Assembly (NCBI GenBank): GCA_022579005.1
Contig: MU401622.1
Span: 22,825 to 86,824, forward strand
Length of the DNA stretch: 64,000 nucleotides
Source: Poronia punctata
Lineage: Eukaryota > Ascomycota > Sordariomycetes > Xylariales > Xylariaceae
Reading direction: 5' to 3'
In this document: positions 4,151 through 64,000 of the stretch, piece after piece
Layout: every line of letters begins with the position of its first letter
Position numbering within the stretch: the first letter of the stretch is position 1
Notes under the pieces: model-generated
The model's database searches: none
What the model was told of the DNA's origin: nothing
The model's input: the letters and a program-made list of their open reading frames with translations, nothing else
Program-made: the position numbers and the translations under genes

Positions 4151-4984
4151 TAAGGGCGTGTTTGGTCTGTTGTTTATTGCTTATTAAAGTAGGGAGAAGC
4201 AAAAAGCATAAACAGTGTGTTTAGTAAACTACTTTTAACTTATCTCTACTTTTAGCACACTAAAATTTGTTTATCCCTGTTTTTTTTACTTAGCTAATTA
4301 GGCAGGATTATTTTGCTTTTATTTTTAGCATTTTTGTTAACAACTTTTTGTTGTTTATTTTTGCTTATATGCTAAATTTAGTTAGTTATAGTAGCTAACC
4401 CTTTTATAATTATAAGTATATAGGTTAGAACATGTACTCTAAGTACTAGTTAGAATTAGCTGCGAAGGTATATTAAAATTAACTGCGCAAGTATGTTAAA
4501 ATTGAATTAACTGCAAAGGTATGTTAAAATTCAATTAACTGCAAAGGTATATTAAAATTTAAATGACTGCAAAGGTATGTTGGAAATGACTGCAAAGGTA
4601 TGTTAAAAATGACTGCGAAGGTATGTTGGAAATGACTGCAAAGGTATGTTGAAAATAACTGCAAAGGTATGTTGGAAATGACTGCAAAGGTATGTTGGAA
4701 TTAACTGCGTAAGGCTATATTTAAGTGCTAAATACAGTAGCAACGCATAATTTATAGTGTTAATACCTCTGCTATATAGGCTGCTATAGCCCTATAATAA
4801 TAAGCAAAAAGCAATAATTCTACAACCAAACACAAATTAACTTATTTGTCCTAAAAAGAACTGCAGTTGTCGCTGATTAGCTGCAGCTTTAGCCTATAAA
4901 CAACCTACTTATCGCTTTACTTATAACAAGGATGTCACGGGCCATAAGTAAAAGCAATAAACAAGCAGACCAAACACGCCCTAA
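4151..4984. mobile_element. PIF/Harbinger-type inverted-repeat element (MITE-like), non-coding
   Basis: The element spans 4154-4981 (828 bases). The left end begins GGGCGTGTTTGGTCTG and the right end is its exact inverse complement. Beyond 16 bases the match continues with one indel as far as the TTGTTTATTGCTT part. TAA occurs directly outside both ends (4151-4153 and 4982-4984), a 3-base target duplication of the TWA type. Ends starting GGGC plus a TWA duplication are the known signature of PIF/Harbinger (Tourist-like) elements. The interior is AT-rich with no transposase frame and holds a tandem array at 4451-4715. It is therefore non-autonomous and would need a transposase from elsewhere. 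Its sharp ends suggest it is not very old. Confidence 0.8.
4451..4715. repeat. minisatellite inside the inverted-repeat element
   Basis: About eleven degenerate units share the core CTGCAAAGGTATGTT, followed by AAAATT or GGAAATGA spacers. Unit length varies from about 22 to 29 bases. The right-hand units are shorter and more alike than the left-hand ones. Confidence 0.85.
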
Positions 4985-7900
4985 GTCGGTGTGGCATTGA
5001 CCTCGATTTATTTATTTCACGGCCATGCAATGAGGACAGAAGATCCGAAAGTTGCAGTTCCCAAGTCGTACCATTTAAATACCAATCGATCACCCGGTGA
5101 GGCTGCACCAGGGCGCGAGATCGACGACGGCAGATCAACAAGTCGGAATTTATTAGTGTCCGTAGTGGGTGGTGCAGACCTACTGTGCGTACTCGTACTT
5201 ACCTAGTGGTAGGCACTAATTCAGTCTAGAATGCTACCGTGGGTCCCCGTACTATCACCAAGCAGTGCCGGCGTTACCTCGCTAGCGACCCCTCTCAAAA
5301 ACGACGGCTCAGGTACGCGTGTCCCGCCGGCCCCCGGCCAAACCCTTTTTTTTAGCTTGTTTCACGACGCTCTCTCGACTTGAAAGTTGAACTTGCTGCT
5401 GTACCACTATTCCACACGCTATCGACGACCCCGGCCTTTTGAAGAGAGTGTCTCCTCACAACGACTCCCAGTAGCTAAAGCAATAATTCTTTTAGAGCTT
5501 GCATGGTCAGGGTTTCGGTCGGTTCGGAAGCACCGTCTATGTTCGAAACGATTGTTCTAGTCTGCTCCCAACCTTCCAATTGCTGATTCAACATGGCGAC
5601 AGTGGAGAATCAGGAATTTCCTAGGAATGAGGGGTCTCAGCCTTTCAGGTAATGAATTCGCTAGTCACTAAAATAGGTTTGTTCGACCAGGATCTGTCTC
5701 TTCGTATGCTGTGGTGTTTTATTCCAAAGATGGGAACTGACAGGCCTCCGATGCACGACATCTTGTTGTCTACCTCTCACCTTCCTATAATCTTTCCATG
5801 GAGAGATGTCGGGAGCATTTGACCAGAGCCGGGTTGGAAGCTGTGCCGTCGGACAAGGCTTTTAATCTCTTAATCAAAGCCGAATATAACATACCTACCT
5901 TGGTCCTTAGGTATGTCATTAGTTAAAAGGCCGTCAAATGACACCAAGCACTTAAAAGAGAAGGAGAAAGTAAATATCGGCCATGGAGCACAAGGTATGT
6001 GGCTATTTTTATGAAGGACGTTTAATTATCACTCATCCCTCGTGGGAGAGTTGCTTACTTGGATAGGAAGCTCATTCGGATTGCTTTGAAGAAATCCCCG
6101 GGTGTTCGTTAGAAGTGGATAGTGGATCCATCGCTTTGCGACTCGTCAGTCAGCAGAAGAATTCAACCTCATGAGAGAATCCATGCACGGGTAGTATTCA
6201 AGATCACGTCGTAGCCCCCCAGCACTAGGCAATGGCAATGCTGTGCCATATGGCGCGCAGTTGTGTTTTCTTTCCTTCCGCTTGCTTGGATGAACTCGCA
6301 TCTGCCTAGGTTGGGGGCTGGGGCTGGGGCTGGGTACACGCATTTTGTAGGGTCTTCTGTCTGTCCATCGAAAGTGCAGGCATTCTACTACAAACAGAAT
6401 GAAGATGTCGACGAAAGGATATTTGACCACCTCAAGGTTTCAACTTACCAAGGGGGTGCTACAAGTACATTGCAGCTGAGAAGCCCTTTACCGCCGTCGC
6501 GTCAGTGTAATGCTGTAAACCAAAGAAACGAAACGATAGGGCGCATTGATTGGGTCTGCTCGCTTCGAGAGTGTTTCATGTGTTGCCAACCAAAAGTCCT
6601 CGGTTTGTACCCAACCGGCGCCATCGGGGAATAGGTAGATGTTTCATTGGCCAAGGCTTGCAGTGAACAGCTCTTCAGTTCTTCTCTCCCCCCTCCTCCT
6701 CTTCCCCGATAGGTAAGGTGATATTCTTACCTATTTGTTGTCAGTAAAATTACACATCCGTCCTATTGGTAAGTTTGCTTGGTGAATCAGGAATCAAAAT
6801 TGACGCCTCTGTCTTATGCGACACGTAGCTGGCGCTTGCTCTCTTAATCATCAGCTTATACTTGAACGATCTGATGAATCGTTTACTTGGAAGTATCTTA
6901 CATGCCCGACGTGCCAACCCACGTGTTTGGACTACCGTGACTCCAGACCTTGTACACGTACGTGTACGATGCATGTGTATTGATTGATTGATGGTGTTTA
7001 AGCACTATAATACAGTGAAATATACATTCTTTGTCTACCTGCCTAAACTTGAAGTGTTTTAGCTCGCCTGCCGTAATAGGTAAGTTCTTTAAACAAATTG
7101 TCGGTTAGCTCCGGATTGTCCAGATGGTCCCGATTTACCGAACAAGCATTTCCCACTGCTAGCCTGTATTCACTTCGACCACTTCCACATATCTAAAGTA
7201 GGTACATGATGTATTCGGTTTTCTTGCACAGAAAGACGAGGCACTCGGTTATTTAGATTTAGAAGGTTGTCGACTTCTGATCTTGCGCCACTACCAAGAT
7301 CCATATTCCCCTTGCGCCTCGCGCTATCGAGTCATGTCATTGCCTGGTTCTTTAGGTGAGGTTCATCCTGTACACATAAGGAGAGAATGTTGAAGATAAG
7401 GGAATTGAAAGAGAGTCGCATAGCACCTATCAAGTTGCCGAGCAAGCTCAACCAACAAACGCCTGACTGACAGTTTTGTCCCTTTTCCGAGACCGAGATG
7501 CTCTTCGCAAATATCCATATAGCTGTTACCCACCCTTGAAACTGGCTGCTTGTAGTCCTTTGTTCCCGAATTTCCGGCGTTGAGCAAGATGGTCGATTTT
7601 CCTGGCGTCCCCTGGCGTTCCTGACGAATGACCGCTTTCTTCTTTACTACAAACACAATAGGTAAAGTACGGACTGCACAACAAAGCGCCGAGCGGTACC
7701 TGTTGCAGAATATGATGTATACCTAAAATATATTTATAATAGTTTGGGTCGAATGTGAGTCTGGCCCAAAAAGTCTGGGTCCTCTGTCCCACCCGGACTG
7801 CCACCTCATGGGCGAAGCAAGCCCACCTGCCTCCCCACCCCTGCATCTTACCCAACATACATGCCTCACATTCAACCAACGTTGGTCGACATGCGCGCGC

Positions 7901-47230: not shown

Positions 47231-48191
47231 TCATTGTCTCTTGTTCACTAAGCTATCATCGACATTGCTCTTGTACTTGATTTTACCAGGTTCCCTAGCC
47301 CACGTCTCGGCCAGGTCAAATCCCGGCGGTTCCTCGTCAGGGTACCCGAGGCTTCTGCGGACCTTCAGCACCTCCTCGCGTACCCTCCTCGCAACCTCGA
47401 TCCTGATCTTCACAGCCCGCTCCCCGTACTTGAGCTCTTCCGGCAATTCACCCAATATGGCCGGGACCTGCTGCTGCTGCTTCTGTTGTTGCTGTTCCAC
47501 CAGCTCCTGCCATTGCGCACGGAGATCGCCAAAGACTTTTTCGGTATCTACTCGCTCGCCGAAAGCCATCCTGAACTCGACGCCGAATCGAGGTAGGAAC
47601 CGCGGGAAACCCCTGTCTTCTGACATGATGCGTTGCGTGCCGTCGATGAAGATGGGCACGACGTCGGGCATCGGCTCGCTCTCTAATATCATGCGGGCCA
47701 CGCCCCATTTGAAGTAACGCATGAACATCTTGGGATGCTGGTGCACACATGCTTCCGGGAAGACGTGAACCCAGCTGTGTCGATTCTGCTCATAGAGAGT
47801 GAAAGGGTTTGGCTTGATCGTTCCGCTGTCTGTCAAGGTAGAAGAAGGAGGCTCGGCGAGCGGCCTTGACGACAACAGCCTGATTGCTTGCGGCACGGTG
47901 GGTTGAAAGAGGCCGCCGTCAGGTGAGTGTTGGAGGCGATGAGTTGGGAGGACCTGGCCGGCGGTAAAGAACGTGCTCAGGAGACTGCCAGTCACGGGGA
48001 GAGATGAGATGAGTTCGAGGCGAACTAGGGGGGGGGGGGGGGGGGGGTCAAGAGTAAAAAACACACCCATTTTGGAAACATAAAACGTGAGCGCCTATAC
48101 CCCAACGATGGTTAGAGGGGTTTAAGGCGTGCCCCAATGGCAGCACACCCCCCATTAGGGGAACAACAATTCTGTNNNNNNNNNNCCCCCG

Positions 48192-57352: not shown

Positions 57353-57839
57353 CCTTGGGTGGTCGTGCTTCTTATATGGCAACTTAATGTAAGAACCATA
57401 TATATACGTGTCCCTGAGGGAGGGAACAGTTTGACCGCAGTGGATTTAATAGGTGCCTGTTTGCAACTCACTCTTGTTGCATGTTTAACATCATGGACTG
57501 CGACACAACTCAAAGTCCATGGGAGGTATGGAGGTACATTAGGTTGCGGTGCAAAGAGACCCGCACCTACAATGTACCTATATAGCCGTACGCGTTACAT
57601 AATAAAGAAGTTACGTATTATGGACATACCTATTGAAATACACATAACACAGGATATGTACATAAATTATAAGGCACTGGAATATCGAATTATACGAGTA
57701 CCATGTCAGGAACAACAAACTACACGTAAAGCATTAGTCCTCAATAATCGGAAAGCTTGCTTTCTTATAACTACAATTTTAAAACCTAAAAGCTTGCTTA
57801 GTCTTAGGATTAAGGTTGTAAGAGAGCAAGCTTGATTTT
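57353..57839. other. Sgf73 promoter and transition to AT-rich DNA
   Basis: Ordinary base composition up to about 57830, with repeated AAGCTTGCT/GCAAGCTT words near 57750-57835. No gene was seen. Confidence 0.5.
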
Positions 57840-60800
57840 AATTTTTATATATAAGTAAGTATAAGGGGGAGGTTAATAAAATTTTCAAACTTTTAGCGTT
57901 GTTTTTATTTAGTCTTTTAGTTAGTTAAAACAAATAGCGCAAACCTTTTATTAGTTAAATAAAAAAGTAATAATAATAATAAATACTATTTAACTACACT
58001 ATTATATAACTATTTTATAACTAAGCTTTTTAACTTTAATAGTAACTATTAAACTTTAAATATAAAATTTTTAAAGCTTATAATAAGCAAAAGAAGGTTT
58101 AAAAGGTTTTTTTTAATAAAAACAAAATTAAAGTTAAAGTATAAAAATTAAAAATAAACAATAGCTAATAACTTTTTATTATATTTAACTTTTTTACTTA
58201 TATATTTAAATTTAATTAGTATACTAATTTGTTTTAATAGCTATATTTTAAAATGTTTTTTATGCTTTTTTTTACTTATACTAGCTATTAGCCCCTTTTA
58301 AATAACTTACTTTTTAATTTGCTTAACTAGGGTTTTAATTTAATTACTACTATAATTTATATTAAATACTGCTAATTTTTCTTATTATAGCACTTTATTA
58401 GTATTTATATTAATAAAAAAGTCTTTATATACTAAAAATACTATAATAAAGCGTTTTAATATTTAGCTTTAGTTGTTTGCTTTTTACTAGTTAAGCGTAT
58501 ACTTAGTACTGCTTAGCTTTTTTTTTAATGCTAAAAATTTCTAGCTTTTAGTTTTGCTTAAATAAAAGCTTTTTTTATAGCTAACAAAACACTTTTAGCT
58601 TTTTTAATAAACTAGTTTTTAAATATAAACTTTTATTAATAAAAATTTTATAGTTTTAATACGCTTTTTTATTATAGCTAATTAAGCTTAGATTTATTAT
58701 ATACTATAATAGCTTAATATAACTAAGCTGCTATTTTTTATTAGCATTATTAAAAAAAGCGTGCTAGTTATAATTTATTTATAACTTTTACTTTAAATTA
58801 GCTATGCTATAAGCTTAATATAAGCTTGCTACAAAGTTTAAGTTGCTTTTTAAGCTAAAATAAAAGTTTTATAAGCTTTTTTATAAGCTTAAACATATTT
58901 TATAATTTAAAAAGCAACTTTTTTAGCTTTATACTTACTAGTTTTTAAAATCCTTTTTTTAGCTTTTAAAGTTTTTTTTTAGCTTTTAAAATTTTAGTAG
59001 CTTTTAAAATTTTCTTTTAAGCTTTTAAGATTTTTTTAAAAGCTTTTAAAACTTATTTAAAAGCTTATAAAGCTTAATAAATTAAAAATAACTATATATT
59101 ACTTAGCTTTTTATTGCTTTAAACTAATTTGCTATATAACTTATAAAAAAGCTTTATATTACTAACTTTTTTTAAAATAATAAGCTAAAAGTAAACGCTG
59201 CTACGTAAATAAATTAGTTTATAATTTATAATATTAATATATAACTTTTTTAAAACTTTTATACTACTTTTGCTTTATATACTATAAAAAAATATTTATA
59301 CTATTATAAGCATTAGTTTAATATAAATATTTACTTAAGTTTATATAAGCTTTATATAAGTAAAAATATTAGTTTTAAAAACTAAGTGCTTTTTTTAGTG
59401 CTAAAAACTTTATAAACTTTAATAATATTTTTAATTATTTTTTTACTTTTATATAAACTAAGTAAATGCTAATTATATAAGTATATATTTATATTAAAGT
59501 TTATTAAATTAAAAGCGCTTTATACTAATACTATAGTTATATTTACTACTTTTTTTAAAATGTTACTAAAATATAAAATTAACTTTTTTTGCTTTTTATA
59601 AAGCTTAATTATATAGTTATTAAAATACGCAACGCTTGCTTTTAATAATAAATTATTTATAATTTTTATATTTAGCGTTAAGCTATTTATACTTAGCTTA
59701 TTTTTTTAAAGCAAAACTACTTTAGTTATTAAAATATTTTACTTAATTATAAGTAGCTAAATTGTTTTTTTAATAATAATAACGTTTTTAATTAACTTAG
59801 CAACGTTATAAACGTTAAAAATAATATAAGCTTAAATAATAATATTACTAATAAAAAGCTTGCTAAGCTTATAAATAAAGTTAACATTAGTGCTATATTA
59901 AATTTTATAGCTTAAAAAGTAAAATTTAACGTTTTTTAAAATAAAGTTTAAAGCAATAAAGCTTTTTAGCGTTACTTAGATTTTTTTTTTATTTAATTTA
60001 CTTTTATTAATAAATTTAGCTATACTAAGCTTTTACTTTTAGTTATATTTTTTACTTTTTTTTTTATAGCATAGCTAAGTTTATTTAAAGTTGCTTTTAT
60101 AGTATTAAGTTTAAAGTTTAAGTTAACTATACTTTTAAATAGTATAATAAGCGCTTTACTTAATATTTAAAATTTGCTTTTATTTATTATAATATAATAA
60201 TATATAAGCAAGTTACTTTTTAAAGCTTTTTTTTTATTAATTGCTAGCTTAAAAAAAATTAAGCTTTAATTGCTATAAAGCTTAAAGCTATATTTAAATT
60301 TAAGCTTTTAAAAGTATAGTTTATTTTAAACTTTATTGTTTATTATATTAAAAACTTTTAAAGTACTTGCTTTTTTTAAAGTAATAAAAAAAAAAACTTA
60401 AAAGTATATTATAATATATTAAGTTGCTTATTTTTTTATTACTTTTTTTATAGCTAATTATTATTAGTATAATTTTTATAAGCATATGCTTATATTTAAA
60501 TAATAGCAAAATGTTTTTTTTAAAGCTAATAAGCTTTATATTATTATAAAAAGCGTTAAAAATAATTTATATATTGCTATATACTAGTTTTATATTTAGT
60601 TTAATACTTTTATAAAAAAAGTTATTATATTTAAGTTTTATATTAAAAACTATTAAAATTACTATAAATAGTAAAGCTGCAAATTTTTTTATAATTATAA
60701 ATTTATTTAGTTAAAAGGCATTTTTAATATTAATATATTTTTTAAATTTTTAAAATTTTAGTTTAAAGCTTTTTAAAAAAAGCATATTTTAGCTTTAAAT

Positions 60801-63800
60801 ATAAACTTTTTTTAAAAGCTTAATTTTGCTATTAACTTTTTTGCTTTACTTTTTAAAAAATAAGTTTTTATATTTAACTATTTATTATAGCTTTTAATAC
60901 GTTTTTAAATTTATATTTATATACTTGCTTATTATTTTTATAAAAAAAAAAGCGCGCAAATTAAAATAAGCTAGGTTTTTTAGCTAACCTTTTTACTAAA
61001 GCTTAAATTTATATAATTAATATATACTTTATTAAAAGTAGCAAGCTTATTTTAGCTAATGCTAGTTTTGCTACTTTGCGTTGCTTGTTAAAAGCTTATA
61101 CTTTTTTTATAAACTTGCATTATTACTTTTACTTTTTTTGTTAATTTTAAAATTGTGCTTATATTAATAAATTAATAAACTTTAATTATTAAGCGTTTAT
61201 TTTTTACTATAATAATTGTTGCTTTAATATTTATAATATTGCTATTACTTTTAAGTAAGTTGCTAATATAAATATATTGCTTTATTATAATTATTTTATA
61301 GTAGTTAACTATATAATTAAGTACTACTTAAAAGCAAAAACTATGTTTTAGTTTTATTAAAACTTAGTTTATAAAATATTGCTATAAATTAGTAAAAAAG
61401 CCTTTTTACTATTATTAGTTATATATATAATAAATAAGTTAGTTAGTAAGCATAACGTTTTTTTTAAAAAAATTATATATTTACTTTTTAACTTTTTATT
61501 TTAATAGTTTTTATATATTATATAGTATATTAACTATTGCAATAAAGCCTTTTAGCTATATTAGTTTATTATAAAAAGCAAAAAAGTTAATTAAAAAGCA
61601 ACTATGCTTAAAAAGTATAAAAAAAGCTACTTTATATTGCTAGCTTTAATTAAGTTACTTATTTTTAGTAGCTAACTAAATAAAGTTAAAATTTAAATCT
61701 TTTTTACTTTTGCTTATAAGCTTTTAACTATATTTTAATTTATTATTTTAAGTTTAAGCTTAATATATATGTTAAAAACTTTGCTTATATTAAAATAATA
61801 TTTTATTATTTATTTAATATAAAAAGTATTATTTTTACTAAAATTATAAATAGCTATTAATATAATACTTATACTAAAGTATACTTTACTTGCTAAAAAC
61901 TTTATATTAATAAAAAAACATTAGCTAGTATAATAATAATTACTATTATATTAATTAAAGCATTATTTTTAATAATAAGTTTAAAAATAAAAAGTATAAG
62001 CTTAAAAGTAACTTTAGTAGTTAAAATAAGCTTACTTACTACTTTTTAAAACGTAGTTTAAATAATAATAATTTTTTTAAGCAGCTTAAAGTATATAAAC
62101 TTAATTTTACTTTTAACTAAAGTTTTTAAGTTAGCAAATATTTTAATTATAGTAATTTTAATAACTAAAACTATTTATTTTTTTTATAAAGCTATGCTAA
62201 GTTTAATAATATTACTAAAAATATACTTTTAAATATTTAAAATACTTTTAATACTAAGCAGCGTTGCTTTTATAACTTTTTTATTAACTACTACTAATTT
62301 ATATTATAAAAAAAAACTTTAAGCTAATTTTATTAAACTATAATAGTTTTATAAGCACTAGTAAATTATTTATGCTTAAAGTTTTTTATATTTATTTAGC
62401 ATATATAGCTTTTAAAGCTAAAGTTTAAAACTTTGTTTTATATTATATGCTTACTAGCATTGTTATTAACAATATTATAAGCTATACTATATATTTACTT
62501 TTTTTATTACTAGTTAAAAGCGCTTTTTTAATTTTTATAAGCATTGCTTTAGCTAAATTATAATAGGCGTTTAATAAAAAAAATACGTTTTTTTTAATAA
62601 AAAATTTATAATTAGCTTTAAAGTACTTAGCTAAGTTAATAACTGCTTTTAATAAGCTATTTTAAATTTTAATAATAAAGCTTTTAAGCATATAATAAGT
62701 AGCTTTAGCTATATTTTGTTTAATAACTTTTGCTAGCTTTTTTTTATTACTGCTTACTTTTTATTTAGCTATACTTTTAAAATAAATTTTATATAAATAT
62801 TAAATAAATATGTTTATATATTTTTTAATAAAACTATTTACTTTTAATTTATTATATATTAAAAAAGCAATGCTTAAGCTAGCTTTTATACTATATTAAA
62901 TAAATTATAGCAATATTAAGTTTTTTAAAAGCACTAGAAATTATTTAATACTTGCTATTTATATAATTTTTTTGCTAATATTATTGCTTTTTTTAATTTT
63001 GCTTTATATATTTTTATTTAATATAAATAAGTTAATTAATATAATTATAAACATATAACCTAATTAAAGTAGCTTACTTTTTATATAAAAGCTATAAAGT
63101 ATAGCTTTTTATAAGATTAAGCGCTTTTTTATAATATTAGTAACTATAACGATTAGTAAGGCATAATAGCTATATATTAATGCTATATAAAAGATTTTAA
63201 GTTAAAGAAAAAAAAAAGAGACTAGCTGCGCTAAAATCTATTTTTTTGCTACTTATATATAAATACCTAGCTAAAAATATAAGTATATAACTAATTAAAT
63301 TATTTTATTAAGTAAGTTTAGCTAAGCAAAGGTAGTATTTAGTACTACTTTAAACCTACTTTATAATAACGTATATAGTTTATAAGTTATATAATTATTT
63401 TTTTAATTACGTAACCTTAAACTAATAAGCATAGCTATTATACTACCTTTTTTTAAAACTAAAGCTAAGGTATAAAGTGCTTAAGCTAAGGTCTTTTTTA
63501 TTATAAAAGTTACTAAAAGTGCTGCTTAAAAGCTAACACTTTTTTTTTATTTAAAGCTAATACTTTTTTTTTTTTTAATATTAATATAAAAGATATTTTT
63601 AACAACTTGCTACGCTTATATACCTTATAATAAGTTTTTTTTATAAACATATACTTAGTTAACCTTTTTTTATTTTAATAAAAATATTAAATTATAAGTT
63701 AGTTTAGTTAAGTTATAATATAAATAATTTATTAAATATAGTATAACTAAATATAAACCTTTATTTTTATATTTTTAACCTAAGTAAAGCTAGTAAGTAA

Positions 63801-64000
63801 ATAAAAGCTAAAAGTTTATAAAGCATTAAAGCTTAAATATAGCGTTTTATAATAAGTTGCTTGCTTTTATAAACAGCTTTAAAGTTATTTAAGTAGTTTT
63901 TTAGCACTATATTTGCTACTATAGCGTATAGCTATTTATTAAAACGTATTAAAAGTTTAAAAGCTAAAAAGTAGCTATTATAAAAGTTTTTTAAAGCTAT
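57840..64000. other. AT-rich, hypermutated gene-free block (continues beyond window)
   Basis: At least 6.1 kb in which G+C falls to roughly 10-15 per cent by eye. No open frame of any length survives on either strand. The remaining G and C sit mainly in AGCT, AAGCTT, TTGCT and AGCG words. In 59041-59940 and 61801-62520 I find no TpC, GpA, CpC or GpG at all, while CpG, GpC, ApC, GpT and some CpA/TpG persist. It looks like old repeats or centromere/heterochromatin-type DNA eroded by context-dependent C-to-T change. No transposon family is recognisable. Confidence 0.85.

Follow-up and report, generated by a model that had tools for sequence, protein, structure and literature searches.

The subject of this study is an AT-rich block at the end of a 64-kb window of genomic DNA from Poronia punctata, a coprophilous (dung) member of the Xylariaceae. 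The window, to which all coordinates refer unless stated otherwise, lies on the contig labelled C169 and ends where the contig ends; the assembly analysed comprises 45.05 Mb in 573 contigs and represents this one species. The element concerned is a repeat of ~6.9 kb in full, a copy of which runs (unstranded) from ~57745 to 63149, carries C-to-T changes on both strands and has relatives on 12 other contigs, mostly at 90–94% identity and in one case at 84%. Alignments of the other copies start between 57742 and 57789 and cease to match at position 63149 or immediately before it; at 63149 the window copy is truncated, and the others run on. A different AT-rich sequence, poor in YpC (C preceded by a pyrimidine), follows without assigned strand from 63150 to 64000, the contig end; it may or may not be repetitive. 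An initial annotation made from the letters alone had let the block start at 57840; GC content drops at 57841, but this is not the start of the repeat.

The initial annotation had described long intervals of the block as devoid of the dinucleotides TpC, GpA, CpC and GpG, and recounting bore this out. Within 59041–59940, all four counts were zero, as compared to 33.0 TpC, 24.9 GpA, 6.2 CpC and 4.1 GpG expected from base composition, and the interval retained 10 CpG and 18 CpA plus TpG (~10 and ~17 had been claimed). None of the four occurred in 61801–62520 either, and their reported rarity over the rest of the block is reflected in a total of 10 TpC, 13 GpA, 17 CpC and 16 GpG in 57841–64000. 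The two longest runs free of these dinucleotides, both unstranded, span 59030–59979 (949 bases) and 61699–62566 (867 bases), while the longest outside the block measures 92 bases. Counting both strands, a pyrimidine preceded C in 56 of 994 cases in 57841–64000 versus 14,744 of 28,464 in 1–57000, and the remaining 57 kb of the window, taken as a whole, had normal ratios (TpC 1.01, GpA 1.05). That part also includes a milder second stretch of the same sign at 4201–5000 (GC 0.25–0.38; 66 YpC versus 179 RpC, where R is a purine), which may represent a repeat of greater age or with fewer mutations.

The assertion that the 5′ neighbour decides the fate of a cytosine in the block was right about the loss of C after pyrimidines, but it understated a second depletion: CpA was seen 59 times where 196 were expected (0.30), and TpG stood at 0.42 of expectation, implying that the 3′ base matters, too. 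One of the two standard indices of repeat-induced point mutation (RIP) flags the block: for (CpA+TpG)/(ApC+GpT), the quoted threshold is < 0.7 (PMC7296669), and the block scores 0.36.

The substitution spectrum itself could be read from a Gypsy-type family. Its reference, a GC-normal copy (L056; GC 0.546), encodes protease, reverse transcriptase (RT), RNase H and integrase domains, which we take to be the Gypsy order, and aligns over 13,006 bases, with gap-free pairwise matches, to six AT-rich relatives (L061–L066; GC 0.21–0.24). The change is nearly pure: 4287 of 4291 differences between the reference and the six copies are C-to-T or G-to-A. While these copies lost about 60% (0.597) of their C:G pairs, substitutions of any other kind numbered four over the 13,006 bases, so that the change was fast relative to ordinary substitution.

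Sorted by the preceding base, the mutated fraction in this family was 0.954 after T, 0.890 after C, 0.373 after A and 0.178 after G; sorted by the following base, it was 0.819 for A, 0.716 for G, 0.497 for T and 0.407 for C. Trinucleotide counts (mutated/total) resolve this further: TCA 297/297, TCG 605/611, TCT 286/316 and TCC 353/392; CCA 349/350, CCG 566/590, CCT 482/574 and CCC 416/522; ACA 271/310, ACG 215/403, ACT 50/364 and ACC 46/482; GCA 177/378, GCG 145/533, GCT 15/423 and GCC 14/640. CpA is thus the top 3′ context (0.82), as expected of canonical RIP. At the same time, the notion that C is simply kept after a purine proved overstated, with mutated fractions of 0.87 for ApCpA, 0.53 for ApCpG and 0.47 for GpCpA; the first of these values alone rejects a rule of purine-C immunity.

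The same counts bear on ordinary causes, to which we give next to no credence. Ultraviolet (UV) damage would act at dipyrimidines, and YpC is such a context; yet ACA contains no dipyrimidine and is still changed in 271 of 310 cases, which rules this cause out. Decay of 5-methylcytosine at CpG is refuted by CpG being less affected than CpA (0.72 versus 0.82), by TCA being as fully mutated as TCG, and by GCG reaching 0.27 where TCT reaches 0.91. An origin as AT-rich foreign DNA is dismissed as well, as the aligned copies display C-to-T descent from GC-normal DNA and the mutated zone tracks element borders.

How the two neighbours contribute was quantified across 1187 sites of the Gypsy-type family. 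The 5′ base explained 0.634 of the site-to-site variance (R2), the 3′ base 0.149 and both together 0.807; with shuffled 5′ labels, the best of 500 permutations reached an R2 of 0.014. When the analysis was restricted to sites with unchanged neighbours, the 5′ order held for every 3′ base, with TCC and CCC represented by 13 and 22 cells, respectively. The 3′ base is hence not the main determinant that it would be under a canonical, Neurospora-type spectrum. Negative log-likelihoods over 7185 cells ranked the models in the same way (null 4845.2, 3′ only 4443.0, 5′ only 2961.0), followed by the two-sided additive (2415.2), multiplicative (2366.0) and saturated (2281.7) models.

This ranking speaks to whether two independent processes overlap in these repeats—one RID paralogue (or DIM-2) acting at CpA-type sites, and the other RID paralogue at YpC. 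We consider this unlikely. The genome does encode two RID-type genes from two clades plus a DIM-2-like gene (see below), and the 3′ effect in the Gypsy-type family is weaker after a 5′ pyrimidine, both of which would fit a division of labor. However, the multiplicative model outperforms the additive one with one parameter fewer, and the per-copy profiles are alike across the six Gypsy-type copies. The model comparison only leans toward one process reading both neighbours, since the cells are not independent and neither of the two fits reaches the saturated one.

The 5′ order recurred in every family inspected. In the alignment of the window copy with 15 others (16 rows, leaving out loci L001–L005 and the short matches L022–L035), 3764 of 4062 differences from the window copy (summed by hand) were C/T or A/G. 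Columns fixed as C numbered 0 of 123 for TpC, 0 of 130 for CpC, 70 of 494 for ApC and 191 of 634 for GpC, and the T-state fractions by 5′ base were 0.85 (T), 0.81 (C), 0.41 (A) and 0.28 (G). A DDE_1 family of three copies (GC 0.29–0.37) gave polymorphic-C fractions of 0.83 (T), 0.65 (C), 0.33 (A) and 0.20 (G) by 5′ base, and of 0.64 (A), 0.46 (G), 0.44 (T) and 0.23 (C) by 3′ base. The corresponding 5′ values were 0.94 (T), 0.85 (C), 0.46 (A) and 0.29 (G) in an RT family of three copies, and 0.78 (T), 0.81 (C), 0.30 (A) and 0.22 (G) in another of two. For these four families, columns with other states or too few rows were excluded and the context was read from a C-bearing copy, as it was for the outer positions described next. 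In each of the five families, 5′ T and C exceed A, and A exceeds G; CpA likewise ranks first among the 3′ contexts of every family, whereas the other three change places between families. The aligned copies thus uphold the proposal that C was changed to T almost to saturation, in both strands and governed chiefly by a 5′ pyrimidine, and do not display the alternative outcome of CpA-to-TpA change irrespective of the 5′ base.

Positions further out contribute less. Mantel–Haenszel odds ratios, computed without confidence intervals, for a pyrimidine at −2 were 2.0 in the Gypsy-type family, 1.21 in the DDE_1 family and 2.9 in the window family; a purine at +2 had a weak effect (1.46, 1.07 and 1.28, respectively).

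As to where the mutations fall, the three DDE_1 loci each have a low-GC, low-YpC zone inside the element that fades toward the edges; together with the window copy, examined at its left border, they place the process within repeats. Low GC content alone does not produce the pattern: in an AT-rich bin (GC 0.29) flanking one of the loci examined (L053), the YpC share is normal at 0.46. The least mutated relative of the window element (L013) contains seven frames of at least 70 amino acids; three of these (77–94 amino acids) lie inside the element and four beyond its left end. Just past that end, at L013:7246–7799, are GC-normal frames that look cytochrome P450-like by their motif.

A search for RTs returned 32 matches, three without and 29 with internal stops. 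The stops in the latter comprised 130 TAA, 44 TAG and a single TGA, and this scarcity of TGA is predicted by the loss of GpA. Twelve of the 32 loci were fetched together with the two long-frame ones, chosen by hand rather than at random. Two long stop-free frames (1353 and 1461 amino acids) hold the RT matches G000:C12:122567–123046 and G000:C178:21187–21663, while other copies are mostly heavily mutated. Loci L055, L060 and L069 were left out of all aligned counts; by composition, YpC is scarce in the further AT-rich loci L034, L035 and L060, too. The window additionally includes a run of 10 N at 48176–48185.

The genome encodes four loci with C-5 methyltransferase domains, on contigs C220, C53, C43 and C61. 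Those on C220 (L036) and C53 (L038) are RID-type: 'RIP defective' is the source name of two matches in the C220 search, and both proteins retain the PPCQ and EQT motifs. The C43 protein combines DUF7893, BAH and methyltransferase domains, presumably the domain set of DIM-2, and is hence termed DIM-2-like. The C61 protein matches PDB entry 7r76, titled 'DNA repair protein Rad8', which we take to be Dnmt5, making C61 Dnmt5-like. NCBIfam gave the four no more specific name than C-5 methyltransferase, with two scoring below its cut-off. In a tree of 42 hand-chosen rows, the C220 and C53 proteins fell into two clades, both with other Xylariales, with supports in the Shimodaira–Hasegawa-like approximate likelihood ratio test (SH-aLRT) of 94 for the C53 clade (15 rows) and 98 for the C220 Xylariales clade (19 rows). 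Because the tree was rooted at its midpoint, the split cannot be dated with confidence; one long-branched row (FL0641_b) lacks PPCQ. Several Xylariales have kept the second RID-type clade beside the first: P. punctata, Xylaria acuta, X. castorea, Ustulina deusta, Biscogniauxia marginata, Anthostomella pinea, Parahypoxylon ruwenzoriense and the strains AK1471, FL1651 and FL0641 each have a row in both.

The initial annotation had left the choice between a YpC-preferring cytosine deamination and a RIP variant, and named methyltransferases and cytidine deaminases as the enzymes to look for. A cytidine deaminase of the AID/APOBEC type, with a YTCA-like preference and acting on exposed repeat DNA, appears highly improbable. 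The preference for pyrimidines at −1 and −2 and for A at +1 does resemble the APOBEC3A motif, YTCA. Yet the eight loci with a PF00383 deaminase domain look like housekeeping deaminases, judging from motifs in their reading frames, and a genome search with the AID/APOBEC profile PF08210 yielded zero matches but stayed silent in control genomes as well, so that it does not show absence. In this limited search no such gene was found, and the action in P. punctata is, unlike that of APOBEC3A, repeat-confined. The deaminase half of the proposal thus gains no positive support, in a weak search, and the RIP-type variant is the more likely, RID-type genes being present.

Taken together, the block very probably consists of repeats hit by a RIP-type process that is directed at repeats and reads both neighbours of a C, the 5′ base counting most; a RID-family methyltransferase is its most likely agent. 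In the repeats, C is converted to T in either strand, to near saturation. The dominant preference is for a preceding T or C far over A, and A over G, the secondary preference for a following A over G, and G over T and C, and a pyrimidine at −2 adds further lift, giving 5′-YYCR as a short form. The almost pure C-to-T change, its restriction to repeats at the examined loci, the context rule and the gene inventory are direct observations, whereas we infer the role of RID enzymes, a timing in the sexual cycle and the assignment of the rule to one of the RID paralogues. Setting the pattern in opposition to RIP, as had been done at first, is not warranted: CpA remains the best 3′ context, the mutations are repeat-confined in the examined loci, RID-type genes are present and one RIP index is positive. 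Since the 5′ base outweighs the 3′ base, we class the process as a variant of RIP rather than as its canonical spectrum. It is also possible, as a tentative extension, that the Xylariaceae re-tuned RIP to the 5′-YYCR rule via the second RID paralogue shared by the group, whereby repeats would lose YpC almost completely and acquire hardly any TGA stops.

Several observations weigh against this interpretation. The 3′ order is not uniform, with CpC (21 columns) above CpT in the window element and CpG about equal to CpT in the DDE_1 family, where the effect of the −2 position is weak as well (odds ratio 1.21). In the most distant row of the window alignment (L021), only 92 of 143 differences are C/T or G/A, indicating that other divergence is present, and the TpA/ApT ratio of the block (1.64) is under the threshold of 2 (PMC7296669). 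Lastly, the families were found by homology and are not a random draw from the genome, so generality rests on five homology-found families plus the composition of further AT-rich loci.

RIP has been described by the base 3′ of the mutated C in the accessible portions of PMC4352252, PMC5496416, PMC12543289 and PMC2621366. A strong 5′ effect might then be general in ascomycete RIP, unmeasured as tools and indices use the 3′ base, and P. punctata be ordinary; we regard this as rather doubtful, if less so than two separate processes. In its favor, RIPCAL was, according to its authors, not designed to detect trinucleotide bias (PMC2621366), the surveys, as far as their accessible text goes, tabulate only CpN (PMC4352252, PMC12543289), and the 3′ order found here resembles that of Trichoderma reesei, with CpA about equal to CpG, then CpT above CpC (PMC5496416). 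However, a TCT rate ~65 times that of GCT, as calculated from the mutated fractions, should hardly go unnoticed in experiments on RIP, although this is a plausibility argument only. In the literature on context, on Xylariales and on RID paralogues, as far as it was accessible and mostly outside subscription papers, no RIP of an ascomycete was described as ruled chiefly by the 5′ base. We thus favor a 5′-dominant rule as a new variant of RIP, its spectrum measured in P. punctata alone and its uniqueness unproven. While RIP is described, indexed and searched by the base after C, here the base before C decides most; if so, dinucleotide indices would misread genomes of this kind. The sequence preference of RID-type enzymes would also become testable, with two paralogues in one genome and a clean natural spectrum as read-out. 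To our knowledge, whether RIP proceeds by a methyltransferase or a deaminase route is still open, a question on which a full context rule bears.

Among known systems, the RIP-like hypermutation of Pucciniomycotina, which targets TpCpG (PMC5381629), is the only other such process with a stated 5′ base that we found in the accessible literature. Its target needs both a 5′ T and a 3′ G, whereas P. punctata accepts 5′ C and all four 3′ bases: a TpCpG-only target is at odds with TCA mutated in 297 of 297 and CCC in 416 of 522 cases. Moreover, RID is absent from basidiomycetes such as Pucciniomycotina, according to the accessible part of PMC4352252. With the RID-dependent RIP of Neurospora crassa, the process shares C-to-T change only, action on both strands, restriction to repeats at the examined loci, CpA as the best 3′ context and the presence of RID-family genes; it differs in that the main determinant is here the 5′ base (R2 of 0.634 versus 0.149).

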